A stretch of 59,702 bases of DNA from Asterionellopsis glacialis (Eukaryota; Bacillariophyta; Plagiogrammaphyceae; Rhaphoneidales; Asterionellopsidaceae). Location: contig WKLE02004436.1 in the NCBI GenBank assembly GCA_014885115.2, positions 1-59,702 on the forward strand, read 5' to 3'. Both the position numbers and the translations under genes were made by a program. The notes under the pieces were generated by a model. The model was not told where the DNA came from, searched no databases, and was given only the letters and a program-made list of their open reading frames with translations. Shown in pieces: positions 4,209 to 52,199 of this stretch (positions are counted from its first letter, which is position 1; each line of letters begins with the position of its first letter).

Positions 4209-7200
4209 CTATATCAGTTCTCCAATCTGAACGTCAATAAGACGGCCAAGCTTTTTCTTTTTGTGAACTTTATCAAAATCTTCTGTTCCATCTGCACCGG
4301 CATTGTCTGTGATGAATTCCGGGCCACCTGGGTGTTCCCTGGCAAATTCAGTCATATCATAGACATTCCCATGAAATGCAACCCAAAGATCTTCTGAAGT
4401 GTTATGCTGTTCTAATTCTTCCGTTGTTACCTGACGAGGACCGTCATCATCAGTCGTGGTACTATCATTGGTTTCTTCTTTTCCTTGTTCTGTTGGTACT
4501 ACAAGGTATCCAATAATTTCTTCATCAAAATCATCCATCATATTTTCATTGTGTACAGCACTAAATGCGGCAGTACCGTCCATTCCTGCAAGATCATGGA
4601 TAGACTTGGCTCCTGCTGGATGTTCTTCTGCAAATTCAGTCAAGTCATAAACCTTTCCGTGGATTGCAACCCAACAATCTTCTTCTGTATTATGCTTCAT
4701 CAATTCTTCAAGAGGAACATCACGAAGTTTCTTTTCAGTAGCCTGTTCCTGTGCACCTAGTGTTGATGTGGGTCCAACAGAAATCCTTTCCTTGATTGGA
4801 ATTTTCTTCCCCACAATCGTACCATAGACAGTACATTCCAATAAGGAATTACCTCCAAGACGATTATTACCATGTACTCCACCAGCCACTTCACCGGCTG
4901 CATGTAGGCCTGCAATAATTTGTTTTTCAGAATTCAATACATTTCCTTCTGTATCGATTGTAACACCACCCATGCAGTAATGTAAAACAGGTGTGATGGT
5001 ACCTCCGTAAAAGGTTTCATGGTCAAGGTCCTCTGCGGGTACACCACGGAATGATGTTTTACCCCATTCATCCGTGCCAGCTTTCGCACCTTTTTGGTAT
5101 TGCTGGAATGTAGATCGAAGTGTATCAACATCTTGACCCATCCATTCAGCTAACGATGCAATGCCCTCAAACTTTTGTAACAGGCCCTTGTGGGAATACA
5201 AATCAACATGTTTCTTTCCGTCTTGTGCTGCCGAGGAAGATAGGACAAGCGAAAATGTAGGAATTTCACTCTCCTTATTCCATACTCCATGCTTCGCATA
5301 ATATGGATCATGTGCTAACATCTTGTCGGTCACATAGGCACGTGTCCCTAATTCATTACAAAAACGTTTTCCTTGATTGTTAATAACAACACCACCCACA
5401 CCACGCATCAGCTCAGCTGCCAACATTTTACTAGGATTTAATGGGTCAGTAGGGTCAACCCATCCAGTAGGATGGATTTGAATTTTGTCCATATTGATGG
5501 TAGCAGCACCCAAGGACGTTGCCAACGATACACCATCACCGGTCGAAAAGGCACCTGCGGTTGCAGGCATTTTCATGAGTTCAGGTCGGTAATGTGATAA
5601 ATAGGATCCTTCACTTCGGTCAGCAGCAAAGCCACCCGTGGCAAGTACAGTATTGGGTGACTTGAGTTGGCCCTTTGTACCGGAAGACGAACCAGCTATA
5701 GTTTCATACTCTACACCAATCACTGCACCAGTTTGGTCATCTGTCATCAGATTCGTAACTTTGGTATCCATCATTATCTTCACCTTGCCAGACTTTTCGT
5801 AAGATTTGACTGCCTTTTGAATACCATAAATGATTTCAGCACCTGCCATTCCATTACTGGGTCGGTGAGTACGTTTGGAGGAATGACCACCTAATTGGGC
5901 GAGTAAGGACAAATCCACACCCACACGATCAGTTAAAAAGGATATAGCCTCACGACTATTCTTAACCAAGGTTTCAATAAGAGGAAGTTGTGCTGCATCA
6001 CCGGCAGAACGGATGGTATCATTTTTAAATGTATCCAAGTCATCATCACTAGTTTCATTGTTAGGACAACAAGCATTGATACCAGATGACGCTTTATTGG
6101 AATTACCACCAAGTAAATGTTCCTTTTCAATGACTACCACTGTACCACCACGATCTAATATATTAAGTGCTGCAGATAAACCAGCTAATCCACTTCCAAT
6201 CACAATAGCATCTGGTTCTTCTTCATAAGGTTCTCCACCTAATGACCCAATCGTACTCGATAAATGAAGAAATTTGGTAGGGTCTGTTTCGTAGTGCTTA
6301 ATCAATACAAGTAATTCAGCATTCCGTTGCAAGGCTAATTGTACAAGTTCCGCTTCACGTTCTGCACTAATCATCCCTTGATTGGCTAACGATGATATAA
6401 ATCCAACAGCTCCATCCAAGGATGATGCTGAGACTGTAGCACCAGATGGACCATCAATTACATCTTTATTCGTATTATGCTCAGCCCAATATAGTTGTGT
6501 AAGTTCTCGTACTTCATGGAGTGATTCTGAAAACTTGGCAATCGTATTGATGAATGCTACAATTTCATTCCGTTCAAATAACGATGCCTCCAAGGCAGAT
6601 TCCTTGGTGAATAAAATCTTGAGTGCTGTACCGTACCCCAGCATGGCCATTTTGCCATGCAGTTTGCATTGTTGACATTGGACACAATCCAATACGGAAC
6701 TAATGTTATGAAAGACACCCTTAAAGTTTTGTTGTAAGGAGGCACCAATGTCACTATCCAATCGGGCTTCCTTGAACATGAGAGACTCATCAAAGGCTGT
6801 GAAAACGTTTTGACAGGACCGTAAAATGGTGGAATCCAATAAACGTTTCAATAAGATAGATGCTGTTTCATCTTCAACAATGTTACCTGTTCGAATGTCG
6901 TAATTGTAGAGGAAGGGTGATGATTTTTGCAAGGCTCGTAGCAAGACCACATATGAGAAATGTAAATTACGGATATGATCTGGGTGTTCACCAAACTTAT
7001 CCATAAAGTATTGCGGATTGGCTTCCCAATCTTTACGATTCTTTCGTTTGGAGGGTGGATAATAGTTTTTGGCAATACTCAAGGTTGTAGAGGAATGCAA
7101 TCCAGACAAGAGTCTGTACAAGACACGTTCTTCATAACACATGGGTGCAGATGCTAATCCATCGACAGCTAAACAATTTTCTTCATAAATGGCTTTCCAT

Positions 7201-8396
7201 ATATGTGTTCCGTTGTATCCTGTATTCCGTTCTGGATTCAAGGCCAAATTAACCAATTTGACACCTTCTCCCACCTTAATTTGCGAACACATATCCATCC
7301 AAAAATTATGTGGTAATCCTGAATCATCACAGTCGGCACCATCCAAGGCATCGTCGTCGGACAATACAATGACAGGATCCGATGGTTTGGACCAATCAAA
7401 GGTTTGTTTTTGAGATTCCGATTCCCATCCACATAATTCACCGATGGATCGGAGAGCCGAAGAAATTAAATCATACAAGGGTGATTTGATTTCGAAATAA
7501 TCTTCTTTCAATTCGCATAGTGGTTCATCATCCTCATCCATTTCATCTGCCATATCACCACCATCGCATTCAAAGTCCTCCTCCTCTTCGTCGTCATCAT
7601 CTTGAACTGTCTCGTCCTTTTTATCATACGTATTGGCAGGTTCCGTGACAGGTTCCATGGTAGCCGGCTCTTCTTTCTTTTCTTCCAAAGGAGCAGGAGG
7701 TGAAGTTGAGAATGATGAGGATGCTCCTCCACCCATTCCTCCTCCCATGGAAAAAGGATTTTCATCCTCCTGTTGTACATGACAAGCAGGTTCTGCATCT
7801 TCATCTAAATCTGGTAATCCTCCTGCACATTGTCCTTCGTCGTTGGGTTCCATCATGCTGCTTGTTGTTGTAGTAGTTGTAGAAAAGGTGAGTGATGATG
7901 ATTCCTCTTTTGCTTTGGGTGGTGGAAGTGTATCTTCCTCTTTCTTTGTTGATTGGTCGTCGGTATCATTATCATGTCCTTTGCTATGATGTTTTTTATT
8001 CCAGGAAGCCAATGGACATCGATGATCTAAATCCACAGCAAAGGTACGAAAGAATGCTGTATGTTTCAATTCTTGTAAAATGATATGTAATTGTGAATCA
8101 TTGGCATCTTCTAATTGTTCTACATCACATGTTGCATCTTGAATGGGACCACCTGGCAAATGAAGATTATTACCATTGCCAATATTTCGTGTGAGTGCCG
8201 TCGGTGGAAAGGCCTTTTGTAATTGTTGTTGCTGCTGACTTTCATTGTTTTCTTGTGCAACTGCCAAACTAGCAGTACAGCAACACAGTAGTAACAGTGA
8301 CGAAACTACAGTGAAAACATTGGCTTTTCGTTTCATCATGATGGAAGATACTACTGATGAATGACGCCTTCGTCTCTGTTGCTGTTGTCGTGTCAT
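4209..8396 (-). CDS. ERO1 - fumarate reductase - cytochrome b5 - cytochrome b5 fusion protein
   Basis: Uninterrupted 1395-residue frame with four modules. (1) Signal peptide ending near residue 48; a start at M20 or M21 is also possible. (2) ERO1 thiol oxidase, about 88-660: NPER..TGY (387-394), YEENC, SGLH, LLRAL and the active-site CxxCxxC C571/C574/C577 followed by the GKM..GYGTALK segment. (3) Flavocytochrome-c-type fumarate reductase, about 725-1220: FAD Rossmann GSGLAG at 734, and the expected substrate and catalytic residues H975 (IHPTG), R1011 (RFCNE), H1139 (HYCMGG) and R1179 (NNRLGG). (4) Two cytochrome b5 domains, about 1225-1305 (haem His 1259, 1282) and 1320-1395 (His 1355, 1378). 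An acidic low-complexity insert of about 160 residues sits where ERO1 carries its shuttle cysteines. No KDEL-like tail and no membrane anchor. Domain identities are strong; ER-lumen location and electron flow from ERO1 to fumarate are inference. Confidence 0.92.
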   Translation of the reverse strand: MTRQQQQRRRRHSSVVSSIMMKRKANVFTVVSSLLLLCCCTASLAVAQENNESQQQQQLQKAFPPTALTRNIGNGNNLHLPGGPIQDATCDVEQLEDANDSQLHIILQELKHTAFFRTFAVDLDHRCPLASWNKKHHSKGHDNDTDDQSTKKEEDTLPPPKAKEESSSLTFSTTTTTTSSMMEPNDEGQCAGGLPDLDEDAEPACHVQQEDENPFSMGGGMGGGASSSFSTSPPAPLEEKKEEPATMEPVTEPANTYDKKDETVQDDDDEEEEDFECDGGDMADEMDEDDEPLCELKEDYFEIKSPLYDLISSALRSIGELCGWESESQKQTFDWSKPSDPVIVLSDDDALDGADCDDSGLPHNFWMDMCSQIKVGEGVKLVNLALNPERNTGYNGTHIWKAIYEENCLAVDGLASAPMCYEERVLYRLLSGLHSSTTLSIAKNYYPPSKRKNRKDWEANPQYFMDKFGEHPDHIRNLHFSYVVLLRALQKSSPFLYNYDIRTGNIVEDETASILLKRLLDSTILRSCQNVFTAFDESLMFKEARLDSDIGASLQQNFKGVFHNISSVLDCVQCQQCKLHGKMAMLGYGTALKILFTKESALEASLFERNEIVAFINTIAKFSESLHEVRELTQLYWAEHNTNKDVIDGPSGATVSASSLDGAVGFISSLANQGMISAEREAELVQLALQRNAELLVLIKHYETDPTKFLHLSSTIGSLGGEPYEEEPDAIVIGSGLAGLSAALNILDRGGTVVVIEKEHLLGGNSNKASSGINACCPNNETSDDDLDTFKNDTIRSAGDAAQLPLIETLVKNSREAISFLTDRVGVDLSLLAQLGGHSSKRTHRPSNGMAGAEIIYGIQKAVKSYEKSGKVKIMMDTKVTNLMTDDQTGAVIGVEYETIAGSSSGTKGQLKSPNTVLATGGFAADRSEGSYLSHYRPELMKMPATAGAFSTGDGVSLATSLGAATINMDKIQIHPTGWVDPTDPLNPSKMLAAELMRGVGGVVINNQGKRFCNELGTRAYVTDKMLAHDPYYAKHGVWNKESEIPTFSLVLSSSAAQDGKKHVDLYSHKGLLQKFEGIASLAEWMGQDVDTLRSTFQQYQKGAKAGTDEWGKTSFRGVPAEDLDHETFYGGTITPVLHYCMGGVTIDTEGNVLNSEKQIIAGLHAAGEVAGGVHGNNRLGGNSLLECTVYGTIVGKKIPIKERISVGPTSTLGAQEQATEKKLRDVPLEELMKHNTEEDCWVAIHGKVYDLTEFAEEHPAGAKSIHDLAGMDGTAAFSAVHNENMMDDFDEEIIGYLVVPTEQGKEETNDSTTTDDDGPRQVTTEELEQHNTSEDLWVAFHGNVYDMTEFAREHPGGPEFITDNAGADGTEDFDKVHKKKKLGRLIDVQIGELI

Positions 8397-38808: not shown

Positions 38809-41800
38809 ATGGCGACAATACCTACGCAATATGAAAATGATCCTTTACCATTCCAACTTCCACAATGGATGTTTGATTTACATGAATATCGAAAGAATCT
38901 GATATTGACACATTTAGAACCAATTGTAGTGAAATACTTTGGACCCTTAGAAGAAGAACGACAGAATGAAACAATAACAGACAACAATCTCATGATGATG
39001 GATAGTTATGGTAACACTGATCATGTGGATTTTCAACATCGTCGTCTTGGTTTCTTACCAAGTTATGTGGAAGACGTGGGTTCCTTCCATGAATCTTCCA
39101 TGAGTTTTGCATCCTTGGCGATGCTTGTCATGGTAATGAGTTGTTTGTTTTTAGTATTTGTCAGTTGTTTTTATCATAATCAAAAGACAAGTCCATTGTT
39201 TATCAGTCCACGACGACATCGATTACCCAAGTTAGTACCACCACCTTTACCCGTCGACGGTTTCTTTAGCTGGGTGAGGGTGTGTTTCTTTTTAGACGAT
39301 GAAGAAATTATCAACCGCGTGGGATATGATTCACTAATCTTTTTACGATTCCATCGGTTGGCCTTGCGGTGTATTGTCAAAATGTCCTTATTTTCCTTTG
39401 TTGTCATTATACCACTTAACTTTACGGGAGGTGGTCATGCCAATGCAAGTGATTTGAAGGGTTATGTGGGGTCTTTGCTGTTTACCGACTTTTTACGATT
39501 TACCATGGCCAATGTTAGTGGTGGATCACCACGATTATGGGTCCATTGCTTTGCTGCCTACCTTCTGACGGGGATTGTTGTACGAGAATTATTAATTGAG
39601 TACGAAGCCTTTAATGCCATTCGTCATCGATACTTGCTAAGTCGTGAACCACATTTACGCAGTGTCTTGGTGACCAACATACCACGACATTTACGTGCCC
39701 CAGGTAAAATTGACAATTACTTTCGTCACGTGTATCCAAATGCTGTGAAATCAGTCACCATGTGTCAAAATTTAATTCGATTAGAATCGCTCATTAAACA
39801 ACGGACGGATATGTTGGCAATTATTGAACGGCAGGTATTACTCCTCTGTCGGTCTGAAAAACGAAAGTTATTTCAATACAGTCGCATTGAAAGTTGTACT
39901 TCCAACCTCATGTCTTGTGGATGTTTAGAAGATTTAGGTGTCATTGATGGGACGCAAGAACGACTCACCAGATTGTATAGTCGACTTGAAGAATTAAATG
40001 ATGAAATCGAACAAGAACAACGTCGTCGTCGCCGTGTCATGAAACGATTAGATAAAATGGAAGCATGGGATGGAAGACGTGACATTGATTATTTGTTGGC
40101 ATCACCATTCTTGACAGATGATCCAAAGCAACGACAAATACTTGGGTTAGGGAATGAAGGTAATCAATACCTACCACCCACCATTGGTGCTCCTCGTAAA
40201 TCTGATGGGTCCTTGCATGATATGGTCAACAGCACCACTGGTGATTCCAGTTCTCATGTTACCTTTGCTGAATCAGTACAACAGCATCCATCACAATTAC
40301 AATCGAATGGACCTGTACTGCGATCACAGTCACCTACACCTTCTATGATGCCAGATGTGTCTGTCCCTGTTACAGATAATGAAGGAGATGGTATTATGAA
40401 GGGAGATGATAGTAGCAAAAGAAAATCAAAGAAACCGTTTCAAAGAGCCAAACAAGCCATTCGAAGATATTCGAGACTTGCACGAGAGGTTACATTCTTT
40501 GGTCGTCGTATGGAATCCAATGCTCCTCAACCGTCTGACCTTGGCCGTGCTCATATTGAGGCTCATACGAATGAAGTTACGGACAAGGCATTTGTCACCA
40601 TGAATACATTTACGGCGTCAACCATTGCTATTCAGTCTATGCATTCCTCACGACCAGGATCTATGCAAGTGGCAACTGCACCTGAACCTCGAGATATATT
40701 GTGGGAAAACATATACGTATCCAAGGGTGCACATCGGACTCGATCCTATGTAGGGGAAGCATTAGTTCTTCTCATTATTGGATTTTATGTCTTACCCATG
40801 GCCATTATCTCTCTACTTGTCAGTGAATCAGCATTGGTATCGTCGTCACCACGATTGGCTCAGTTAGCCGAAGCTTCTGCATTTTTTTACAGTGCTATAG
40901 CTGTCGTACAACCATTATGTATCGTATCACTTCAACAACTTTTGCCACCCTTATTTATTTTGATTGGTAAGGCTGAAGGTATGCTGTCCTTCAGTGGTGT
41001 ACAACAGCGAGCATTTTCACGATACTTTTTATTCCAAGTGATTAATGTATTTTTAGTCACAACGATTGCTGGGTCAATCTTTGATACGATTGCGATAATT
41101 GTGGAAAATCCAGAAGCGGCCTTTGAGATGTTAGGGAACTCTCTTCCAAGGTTGTCATCCTTCTTTATAACTCTTGTGACTATTAAAACCTTTGTTGGAC
41201 TTGGTATGGAATTGGTCCGAACAATGAGTATAGTTCAAGCATCGTTGCGATACATACTGTTTCCCAACTCTACGTTACGAGCACAACGGAGTGTTCGATT
41301 GGGGATGAGAGCTATAGATGATCCTGGATGGTTCGCTTTTCACAAAATTTTGGCACAAGATATGCTTGTGGTTGTGATTAGTGTGGTATTTGCAGTTGTG
41401 GCACCATTGGTATTGCTCCCCTGTGCCGTATTTTGTTTGTTCAGTCGCATCATGTGGACACACCATCATTTGTACGTCTATGAAAGTGTCTTTGAAACAG
41501 GAGGTCAATTTTGGCCCAAGATATTCCGTCGGTTCGTCTTTGGTTTGATTATTGCACAAATGACAATTACAGGTCAATTTATTTTAAAGGAAGCAAGACA
41601 TGAAGCCTATGCTACGATTGCACTCATGTTTTTAACGTATTTTTTCCTTCGATCCACTCGAGCACGGTATGACCCATCCAGTTCAACACTGCCTCTTGAA
41701 GTGGCTACCATTATGGATATATCTATTGCACAAGAAAAGGAAGAAGCCATGCGTCGACAAAATCAGCAATACCAGCAGCAAATGTCATCATCACCAACAA

Positions 41801-42306
41801 TACAACCAGGAACAACCCCCTCACCATTATCGGATATGAGGACTCGTACAGCGAGTTCTGCTGAGAGTGAGACGGATACATTTGAACACCATTTGGGTAC
41901 ACGAATTGGATTTCATGATCCATTTGAAAAAGCATATGTTCAACCATCGCTTCGGGCAAATCCACGAGCCAAACCCGAACAGCCATTTCCACCTAATCAA
42001 CTTGGTAGAGAAGAAGCTTTGATGGGACATCATTCCAATTATGCAGGGGGCGGTGACACGAATGGACTTGACAATAGCTTTGGTAACATCAGTAATGATG
42101 TTTGTGATAGTGGTGCAACTGTAAGACTTAAAGCCTTGAATCAACAAGAGCGACGTCTCATCAATCGATGGTGGAGTGATCAACTACAACGTTGTGGAAA
42201 ACAAGATTTAATACCAATCTTAATGGGACAAGAGTGCGGAACCTTACGAATTGGAACAAGAACGAACCTTGTGGAATTAAATCCTCGTCAAGGTGAATCA
42301 GTCTAG
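38809..42306 (+). CDS. OSCA/CSC1-family (DUF221) mechanosensitive cation channel
   Basis: 1165 residues, single exon. N-terminal membrane helices (about 95-125, 195-215, 235-270) are followed by the cytosolic RRM-like domain opened by RSVLVTNIPRHLR (about 285) and a long coiled-coil/linker (340-600). The 7TM RSN1-type domain follows, about 630-950 (APEPRDILWENIYVSKG, the pore-region segments, LLPPLFILIGKAEGMLSFS, GMELVRTMS). OSCA/CSC1/TMEM63 proteins open on membrane tension or hyperosmotic shock and pass Ca and other cations. The C-terminal 200 residues are Gln/Ser/Pro-rich and disordered. Likely plasma membrane and osmosensing; regulation not seen. Confidence 0.92.
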   Translation: MATIPTQYENDPLPFQLPQWMFDLHEYRKNLILTHLEPIVVKYFGPLEEERQNETITDNNLMMMDSYGNTDHVDFQHRRLGFLPSYVEDVGSFHESSMSFASLAMLVMVMSCLFLVFVSCFYHNQKTSPLFISPRRHRLPKLVPPPLPVDGFFSWVRVCFFLDDEEIINRVGYDSLIFLRFHRLALRCIVKMSLFSFVVIIPLNFTGGGHANASDLKGYVGSLLFTDFLRFTMANVSGGSPRLWVHCFAAYLLTGIVVRELLIEYEAFNAIRHRYLLSREPHLRSVLVTNIPRHLRAPGKIDNYFRHVYPNAVKSVTMCQNLIRLESLIKQRTDMLAIIERQVLLLCRSEKRKLFQYSRIESCTSNLMSCGCLEDLGVIDGTQERLTRLYSRLEELNDEIEQEQRRRRRVMKRLDKMEAWDGRRDIDYLLASPFLTDDPKQRQILGLGNEGNQYLPPTIGAPRKSDGSLHDMVNSTTGDSSSHVTFAESVQQHPSQLQSNGPVLRSQSPTPSMMPDVSVPVTDNEGDGIMKGDDSSKRKSKKPFQRAKQAIRRYSRLAREVTFFGRRMESNAPQPSDLGRAHIEAHTNEVTDKAFVTMNTFTASTIAIQSMHSSRPGSMQVATAPEPRDILWENIYVSKGAHRTRSYVGEALVLLIIGFYVLPMAIISLLVSESALVSSSPRLAQLAEASAFFYSAIAVVQPLCIVSLQQLLPPLFILIGKAEGMLSFSGVQQRAFSRYFLFQVINVFLVTTIAGSIFDTIAIIVENPEAAFEMLGNSLPRLSSFFITLVTIKTFVGLGMELVRTMSIVQASLRYILFPNSTLRAQRSVRLGMRAIDDPGWFAFHKILAQDMLVVVISVVFAVVAPLVLLPCAVFCLFSRIMWTHHHLYVYESVFETGGQFWPKIFRRFVFGLIIAQMTITGQFILKEARHEAYATIALMFLTYFFLRSTRARYDPSSSTLPLEVATIMDISIAQEKEEAMRRQNQQYQQQMSSSPTIQPGTTPSPLSDMRTRTASSAESETDTFEHHLGTRIGFHDPFEKAYVQPSLRANPRAKPEQPFPPNQLGREEALMGHHSNYAGGGDTNGLDNSFGNISNDVCDSGATVRLKALNQQERRLINRWWSDQLQRCGKQDLIPILMGQECGTLRIGTRTNLVELNPRQGESV

Positions 42307-49707: not shown

Positions 49708-52199
49708 TTACTCGGCAACTCTGTCACGCTTGTTGACTCTGCGAAAGTCGCCATAGTTTTCCGATACAAAATCCATATGAAATTCCTGACCCACCATGGC
49801 AGTTAACACATCGACACCAATTTTTGCCTCCGAAATGACAGACGACAAATGAGTGGAGCCACAAAATGCCAAGAGACTGTAAGAAGTCTGTTTACCTTCA
49901 ATTTCGTCGTTGATTCGGTCGATCGCGTGATCTTCAATTATTTGTGGAAAATTTGGTCGTTCAAAGTGAAAACATCCCGATTTGAACAGAGATGAACCGG
50001 ACAGCTCACGTCTGAGCTGAGAACAAGATTCCTTGTCTTTATCCGTAATATAAAACGAGATCTTGCAAACTTTTGATGCATTCTTTCTTCCCCATGCGGC
50101 AACCAACCTATCATATTGATCGATGAGGTCTGGAACGATTTGCAGAACATTTGTAGCCGACCTAGTTACCCAAATGAAATGAAGCTCGTCTAAAATCGCA
50201 CGATCCCCGGTAACTGTACTTCTTGCGGACTGATGTCGGGGCTTCACAGATGAGTACCAGAGCCTGCTGGTCATATAACCATGTAAAAGGAGATAAACAA
50301 ATTGATCGTCTGTCTCGAAATTACCCCACGTGTGCTTTTCAAACCAGTACCAGTCAACAAAGACGCTGAGGACAACCATGGTCAGATCAACGTTTACAAG
50401 TAAGGAATTGCAATCCCAGAAACCAGTAGCAACAATTGCGAACATAACTTGAAAGGCAATCGTTCCAGCCTGAAGAGCCTCCGTCATACCATCGTAGAGT
50501 TTGAATGAAAGTCCGTTCCAAGAAAGTGTAAGGGAGTTTACAAGGATCCCGAATACAGGTAAAAGACAAAGTAAAACTACACCATATACAGGTGCAAAAG
50601 CCTTCCAAGCAGCTTCTTTCATCCTTTTTGAGTTTGCAAAGATGGCTGATTTTGGTACGTAAGAGTTCTCCTGCGCTGAACTACCTGTTATTTTGCCGCA
50701 GAAGGTTCCTCTAATGGCATTTTTTGCCTTTTCAACTTTTAGGATGAATTTATTGTTTTCGTCTTCTTCGTGGAAGTAGGCTTCCGGGTTGAGACGTAGA
50801 AGCTGCCGGATGTGATCTTTGCACATACTAACTATTGGAACAATTCCAGTCCCACTACCTACTACAATGGCATGCGAATAACTCTGAGCATTTCCTAGCC
50901 TTGTTCCGTAAGGCCCCATGATTTCAACCTTGATTTCATCCAAATTCCATTCTCGAAACAAAACTCCTTGGTCGCCAGAGGTGCCTTCGTCCTTAGCTGC
51001 TAAAGATTTCTGACGTAACAAGGTCCAAAGATTATCTGTCCATGAGTGTTCTTCCTGAACTTCAATGTAGAATTCCAGGTGATCGTGGTTGTTTGGGCAA
51101 CTTGCAATGGAAAATGGGTGCCAGTGAGGGTCAATCTCGGGAAACTTGATGCATGCGTATTGTCCAGCCTTGAATTGGAAAAGTGCAGGCCTGCGTGTCT
51201 TCATCGTTATCATTCTCGATCCGGTGTCTTGGCCGATTAATTTACTTTCTAGGACATTCGTAGTGTAATTGTTGTGCATGTGCATGGCGAGGCGATCACA
51301 CATGTAGTAGAGCAATGGGGCTGAAAACCATATGAAGGTTTGACTACGGCTAGAAACATCTTTACGCCCCTTTTCACCATCCAGGGTGTGAATCACAGAA
51401 AGTGCATACATGATAAAAACTAAATGATGGATGATGTAAAATACTTCGTAGGGTATGAAATCTCGAAGGAAACTGGTTATAGCTATAACCACACAGGTAG
51501 CCATAATGACGAGACCTGTGATAAAAATCTCAGAACTGAATTTGTCACAAAATGCCTGTTCTCCTCCAGCACAAAGTTTTCCAAAAAATATAAAGAAAAA
51601 AATTGTTGCAACGATAACAATAACTGCCCAAGTGTATCCGAGATGAATATGAATTCGTTGGCTGCGATTGAAAGGGATGAAATTGTTGAGAGCCGTATTG
51701 GAAGCACGAGCGATTGTGAGTCGTGACATGGTTGCTGGAATAATCGCCATCTGAAATAGAATGGCATGCATGGCTCCAAATTCTAAGGAAGGTCCCAAGC
51801 GTTTCCACCAATAAAAGGGTGCTTCCTCGGGTACCATTGTTTTCTGTAAATGGAATTTTTCCATAAAGAAATGAACTACAGTCGTGCAAAAAATAAAATA
51901 AAAATCAACGAGCAATCGTGAAAATGAGAATGCGAATCTATTTTTTTACAAAATATATATATTTTTTATATCTTACCATAAACTACCATTGTCGCAATGA
52001 AATGGACGAGTGTTATCACTAAGAGCTTTCGCTCAAAGTATAATTTAGTAAAAAATCTTGATAAAAACTTTGGCTTCGCATGGTGCCTGATTTTATCCAA
52101 AGTAGCTTTCTTCAATTTCACTGGATACTGTTGTAGCTTTTTCTTCTTTTTCGCGTTTTGCCTAGATGGCCGAGGATCCTCCGGTTGCGGTGGTGCCAT
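49708..52199 (-). CDS. NOX/ferric-reductase-like transmembrane oxidoreductase, two exons
   Basis: Exon 1 is 52199-51977, intron 51876-51976 (101 bp; donor TATG|GTAAGA, acceptor with a T-rich tract, CTGTAG|TTCATT, phase 1), exon 2 51875-49708; 796 residues. Ferric-reductase transmembrane domain, about 55-265, with haem-ligand candidates in IHIHLGYTW and HHLVFIMYALSVIH. FAD-binding domain with HPFSIAS (about 355) and NAD(P)H-binding motif GSGTGIVP (about 445), ending in FCGSTHLSSVI and FHMDFVSENYG. Between GSGTGIVP and the later NAD(P)H-domain strands (LHFIWVTRS) lies an insertion of about 170 residues with three to four hydrophobic segments. The second expected TM3 histidine is absent. It probably moves electrons from NAD(P)H across a membrane to oxygen or Fe(III); acceptor unknown. 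Confidence 0.85.

Follow-up and report, generated by a model that had tools for sequence, protein, structure and literature searches.

Can a single protein form disulfide bonds by passing thiol electrons to fumarate? The question is raised by a contig of the diatom Asterionellopsis glacialis (WKLE02004436.1, positions 1 to 59,702, assembly GCA_014885115.2; the whole 59,702-nucleotide stretch is hereafter the window). One uninterrupted open reading frame on its minus strand (4209-8396), a single exon, encodes 1395 residues that comprise a hydrophobic N-terminus, an ERO1 thiol oxidase, a linker of about 60 residues, an Osm1-type fumarate reductase, and two cytochrome b5 domains, in this order from N to C terminus. 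Oxygen-free disulfide formation is an open question, and the answer available from yeast depends on two proteins in weak contact. We give a probability of roughly 0.6 to the reading that the fused protein is a single-chain disulfide generator, probably in the lumen of the endoplasmic reticulum (ER), which would pass thiol electrons to fumarate. This reading draws on the residues of the protein and on the yeast analogy.

Domain organisation of the protein

The first-pass annotation of the locus had described one frame joining ERO1, fumarate reductase, and two b5 domains, and profile searches bear this out (all features given here lie on the minus strand). The ERO1 domain spans residues 84-636 (6489-8147; PF04137, 4e-84, 283.2 bits against a cut-off of 27), and the best solved relatives of about residues 376-636 are human and yeast ERO1 (3ahq, 3m31). 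Beyond the linker (residues 655-715; 6252-6434), the soluble fumarate reductase (residues 728-1200; 4797-6215) matches FAD_binding_2 (PF00890, 4.7e-74) and exceeds the curated cut-off of the NCBIfam flavocytochrome c model TIGR01813 (358.7 bits against 285.45). The best solved relative of residues 730-1196 is yeast Osm1 (5glg). Cyt-b5 (PF00173, 1.9e-44) matches in two stretches: the first b5 occupies residues 1225-1299 (4500-4724) and the second residues 1321-1394 (4215-4436), the latter with HPGG at 1355-1358 and H1378.

The N-terminus (residues 1-48; 8253-8396) is basic, then hydrophobic, and resembles a signal peptide. Hydropathy over 19 residues exceeds 1.5 only at starts 24-31, apart from the flavin-binding segment at 729-730. 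The sequence AVA precedes Q49, which we read by eye, without a prediction program, as a cleavage-like site; no F, W, Y or L follows it. Under a crude hydropathy rule, 71 of the 107 homologues starting with methionine have a signal-like N-terminus.

The fusion is conserved among diatoms

Such a frame could be an artefact, with adjacent genes merged by an error of assembly or reading, or with two transcripts in place of one. Residues 300-1395, used as a query, found 314 homologues at E ≤ 0.001, the best 120 of which were listed; counts out of 121 refer to these 120 and the window protein. The precomputed Pfam column shows PF04137, PF00890, and PF00173 together in 120 of the 120 listed homologues. 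Our own profiles recover a single domain order (ERO1-linker-reductase-b5) in 121/121, but were built from the same 121 sequences, so the independent evidence is the Pfam column. The closest listed homologue, P0002, is labelled Asterionellopsis glacialis and is 81% identical over residues 300-1395. MMETSP transcriptome labels are found on 11 of the 120 rows (P0002, P0009, P0016, P0017, P0022, P0027, P0029, P0041, P0054, P0108, and P0119).

Faulty gene models do exist in this family: an ERO1-only model of Nitzschia inconspicua (P0160) stops inside the linker, the transcript P0168 (numbered beside P0027, with a shared start) stops before CxxCxxC, and chance gene-model fusions of ERO1 with other proteins occur (e.g., P0126). 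We read P0160 and P0168 as truncated models. An artefact is contradicted by the recurrence of the architecture in every listed homologue, from several sources, and by the Asterionellopsis relative, which is collinear through the linker. The full-length homologues among the transcript-labelled rows refute it in practice. We thus regard an artefact as extremely improbable, including the assembly error in the linker that the first-pass annotation had allowed for. The fusion is confirmed as real and widespread; it is conserved, and other diatoms transcribe it as one message.

Readable names among the homologues are Stephanopyxis, Detonula, Leptocylindrus, Skeletonema, Cyclotella, Stephanodiscus, Thalassiosira, Nitzschia, and Cylindrotheca. 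Three taxids were checked and all are Bacillariophyta; we take the remaining named carriers to be diatoms as well. The second b5, although present in the window protein as annotated, is unusual: 11 of the 121 proteins have two b5 domains and 110 have one. The suggestion that the four-module protein had not been described agrees with our literature searches, in which no ERO1-reductase fusion was found (most subscription journals and all bioRxiv preprints were outside their coverage), but the protein is no rarity, since it belongs to a lineage-wide enzyme of three parts. Searches that paired Ero1 and fumarate reductase with diatoms, or with cytochrome b5, found no paper. Those for Ero1, fumarate reductase, and fusion found papers, none of them on a fused protein in their accessible parts. 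The accessible part of PMC6715215 mentions the Ero1 of Emiliania but not fumarate. The ERO1-reductase-b5 fusion is, apparently, undescribed.

The linker is itself conserved. Our profile of its roughly 60 residues matches 121/121 and none of the 14 fungal, plant or other long or unfused ERO1 rows checked, and Pfam gave nothing over the cut-off (CtsR_C, at 0.0096, is below it). The linker marks the fusion even in truncated models.

An atypical ERO1 with an intact inner site

The inner active site stands where it had been annotated, as CVQCQQC at residues 571-577 (6666-6686). Its three cysteines are identical in 121/121, as are T392, Y394, W400, S431, H434, and R487; R390 is found in 115/121. We take these seven residues to form the ERO1 flavin site. 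The ERO1 had been called complete. This holds for the inner and flavin sites but not for the usual outer CxxxxC pair, which is missing from 118 of the 121 proteins, the window protein included, and present in three. It is kept in the fungal rows compared and in a second ERO1 of the genome (as CYSETC). In the same region the 121 proteins have an invariant C-x11-28-C within an acidic element (ECDGG...EPLC, residues 277-294; 7515-7568): C277 and C294 are found in 121/121, with a spacing of 11-28 residues that is 14 in 62 of them. This is the candidate outer, or shuttle, pair of what is an atypical member of the ERO1 family. Long low-complexity acidic inserts occur at about residues 135-350 of the domain, and an optional second C...C acidic element lies at residues 190-205 (7782-7829), with both cysteines aligned in 77/121.

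A fumarate reductase with an altered free-FAD pocket

The claim that the reductase has all expected catalytic residues stands: H975, E995, R998, R1019, H1139, and R1179 (positions by alignment to 5glg) are identical in 121/121. The seven fumarate contacts of Osm1 named in PMC6242907 are also matched in 121/121 (S770, S771, H975, R1019, H1139, R1179, and G1182). These data bear on the possibility that coupling is real but ends on another unsaturated acid, or on a sink independent of succinate. The flavocytochrome c family does include urocanate and other enoate reductases, one of which (6t85) is among the matches. However, the invariance of the seven contacts and of E995 and R998, together with the best solved match being Osm1 (260 bits against 178 for urocanate reductase), makes an acceptor other than fumarate improbable.

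The first b5 has the haem histidines H1259 and H1282 in 121/121 and is predicted to bind haem. The pocket that accepts free FAD in Osm1 has fared differently: four of its nine residues are kept (K768, S770, L992, and Y1067) and five are changed or missing. Osm1 W295 is replaced by S, T, G, N or Q, F297 by I, V, T or M, and N359 by H, and F362 is mostly L or H. We dropped a lysine initially read as replacing Osm1 P162, because the alignment count puts P162 in a one-residue gap. A degraded pocket is what one would expect if the electron donor is tethered to the enzyme. Judged by these residues, the fusion is not an Osm1 ortholog as to the free-FAD pocket, even if it probably works like one.

Just after the SSGIN flavin motif lie two vicinal cysteines, C776 and C777 (approximately 6066-6071), present in 103/121 and 105/121. 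We did not adopt them as a redox relay, because they are incomplete among the 121 and missing from five of nine more distant fusions (present in the other four).

Do the joined domains exchange electrons? Fusion might merely set stoichiometry and location, with ERO1 feeding oxygen and the reductase drawing on another donor, either free flavin or an externally reduced b5. b5 domains are commonly reduced by a reductase, and the four kept pocket residues could still serve free flavin. Yet the pocket aromatics W295 and F297 are lost, and F362 nearly so; all 121 proteins preserve the pairing together with its conserved linker; and the yeast enzymes couple even as separate proteins, according to PMC6242907. 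On balance, co-localisation without electron flow seems unlikely, though less so than a change of acceptor.

A proposed route from thiols to fumarate

The yeast precedent invoked in the first-pass annotation, electron transfer from Ero1 to Osm1, is published. PMC6242907 reports fumarate-dependent thiol oxidation by Ero1 and Osm1 when assays were depleted of oxygen, a weak contact between the two (Kd about 150-200 µM), and docking that places the flavins more than 20 Å apart; the authors allow that a mediator could have escaped notice. In the same account the free-FAD pocket is critical for Osm1 and a free-FAD route is thought sufficient.

By analogy, single-chain transfer of thiol electrons to fumarate would proceed as follows. 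Thiols of the PDI type would reduce the outer cysteine pair, probably C277-C294, which would pass electrons to C574-C577 and then to the ERO1 flavin. From there electrons would go, not only to oxygen, but to the attached Osm1-like flavin, either directly or by way of b5, and this flavin would reduce fumarate to succinate. The haem of the C-terminal b5 would probably relay or buffer single electrons between the two flavins, and oxygen may remain an alternative acceptor. The steps from thiols to the ERO1 flavin would be ordinary ERO1 chemistry, the transfer from ERO1 to fumarate is extrapolated from yeast, and two elements, the b5 relay and the role of C277-C294, are our own proposals. All the residues that thiol oxidation, fumarate reduction, and haem binding would call for are present. 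The chemistry, although unproven, is well supported by residues and precedent.

Several points weigh against this route. b5 potentials lie near 0 mV, and the haem-to-flavin step would be uphill. The supply of fumarate to the ER lumen is uncertain. A signal-like N-terminus is absent from 36 of the 107 homologues starting with methionine, under the crude hydropathy rule. No b5 was seen in the partial proteins of Triparma and Emiliania described below, and the genome holds other possible disulfide makers (two QSOX-like matches, one further Erv-like, and two VKOR-like). Finally, the loss of the free-FAD pocket argues against an exact copy of the yeast route, the pocket being held critical in PMC6242907.

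Spread of the fusion beyond diatoms

The ERO1 part, used as a query, found 126 matches, 120 of them listed, under a size limit of 309-982 residues that favours fragments. By our own profiles, 60 of the 120 listed rows have ERO1, linker, and reductase (10 of these 60 with b5), nine have ERO1 and linker only, and 51 have ERO1 alone. Two of the named rows are not diatoms. Triparma retinervis (Bolidophyceae, P0182) has a partial ERO1-reductase fusion with the reductase in two pieces, and the haptophyte Emiliania huxleyi (P0187) has a partial fusion covering the first 58 of the 414 positions of FAD_binding_2. P0185, which groups with Triparma (99/95), has a reductase and a b5 complete in key residues; P0188, which groups with Emiliania (100/98), spans 264 of the 414 FAD_binding_2 positions. 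In the nine more distant fusion rows the key residues agree in the parts present, except for R390 (altered in P0182, P0188, and P0234) and Y394 (altered in P0178).

We built an ERO1 tree of 69 hand-picked rows, including a sample of the 121; it is rooted at the midpoint and its bootstrap had not settled. One group of 58 rows (99/99) holds every fusion row, from diatoms, Triparma, and Emiliania. Within it, 32 rows have the reductase, six have ERO1 and linker, and 20 have ERO1 alone, short models and true stand-alone proteins being indistinguishable among these 26 reductase-less rows. The 11 rows outside the group have no reductase; the sampling by name does not extend to oomycete, brown algal or alveolate ERO1s, among others. 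The rows are most simply read as a single old fusion, inherited vertically or spread among algae, and the sampling fits either route. The search with the ERO1 part also returned ERO1 clusters from marine metagenomes, with up to 252 members (P0219-P0227 and similar), that end 12-14 residues past the ERO1 domain and are either truly stand-alone or exon-limited models.

Farther from diatoms, a query with a yeast Ero1 core gave nine matches among 680 candidates; one of the nine, P0130, is a fusion and falls with pennate diatoms. With so few shared words, the search carries no weight as to absence. Scans with two short reductase-half patterns, also weak as negatives, gave four loci on prokaryote contigs and no match on viral contigs. 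Three of the four are Shewanella loci matching only query residues 571-1034 (28-29% identity). A bacterial metagenome-assembled locus (L016) was discarded as a fusion candidate, as it matched only the reductase when tested.

Anoxic sediment had been offered as a setting for the enzyme. As the sole driver it does not fit: centric diatoms that we take to be planktonic are among the named carriers, and a bolidophyte and Emiliania have partial fusions. Planktonic algae keep the fusion, and sediment is therefore unlikely to be its only reason.

Other disulfide makers and neighbouring genes

The draft genome of A. glacialis (40.3 Mb, 1503 contigs) encodes one other ERO1 only, divergent from the fusion (28% identity). 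It lies on another contig (C326, 24443-25530, loci L002/L004) in two exons that join to 413 residues. Its N-terminus, HAFMRPAP, resembles by our own reading a diatom plastid targeting signal, and it is possibly a plastid ERO1. No other reductase exceeds the TIGR01813 cut-off in this draft. Two loci (L018 on C1034 and L019 on C1159) combine thioredoxin and Erv1/Alr domains in a QSOX-like manner. Given the QSOX-, Erv-, and VKOR-like matches, the fusion need not be the sole disulfide maker of the secretory pathway, and we dropped the idea that it is the organism's only one in the ER.

Elsewhere in the window, Pfam identifies a ferric reductase/NADPH oxidase-like protein (49708-51915, minus). An acylaminoacyl-peptidase-like protein (354-2894, minus) and a calcium-dependent channel (RSN1_7TM; 38809-42306, plus) are ordinary neighbours.

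Implications and comparison with known systems

Preservation across diatoms of a fusion between the same two enzymes constitutes independent evolutionary evidence for ERO1-to-fumarate transfer, and offers one protein in which to measure it. The haem domain suggests a route for electron exchange between distant flavins. If the proposal is true, the folding of secreted proteins could proceed free of peroxide production in a large group of marine algae. We advance a broader version more tentatively, at somewhat below even odds: that diatoms, and probably bolidophytes and haptophytes, fold ER proteins with a one-chain enzyme in which a luminal b5, the mediator missing in yeast, relays electrons to fumarate, so that neither oxygen nor the formation of peroxide would be necessary to folding, in the light or in the dark.

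Known systems share parts of this design. Fungal fumarate reductases that end in a b5 domain share the succession of reductase and b5, and are not known to carry ERO1. The Shewanella flavocytochrome c3 fumarate reductase (1qjd) likewise joins a reductase domain to an attached haem electron donor, but it lacks ERO1, and its haem part, presumably an N-terminal multi-haem c domain, differs from the C-terminal b5 of the algal protein. Yeast Ero1p and human ERO1-alpha share with the algal protein CxxCxxC, the flavin-site residues, and, by sequence, the fold; the algal protein differs in having C-x11-28-C for the outer CxxxxC, acidic inserts, and a fused reductase and b5. Closest of all is the yeast pair of Ero1 and Osm1, with the same enzyme types and the same proposed flow from thiol to ERO1 flavin, Osm1 flavin, and fumarate. 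As described in PMC6242907, these are two proteins in weak contact, without a haem domain and with a free-FAD pocket, whereas the algal protein is a single chain with b5 attached and that pocket largely lost.

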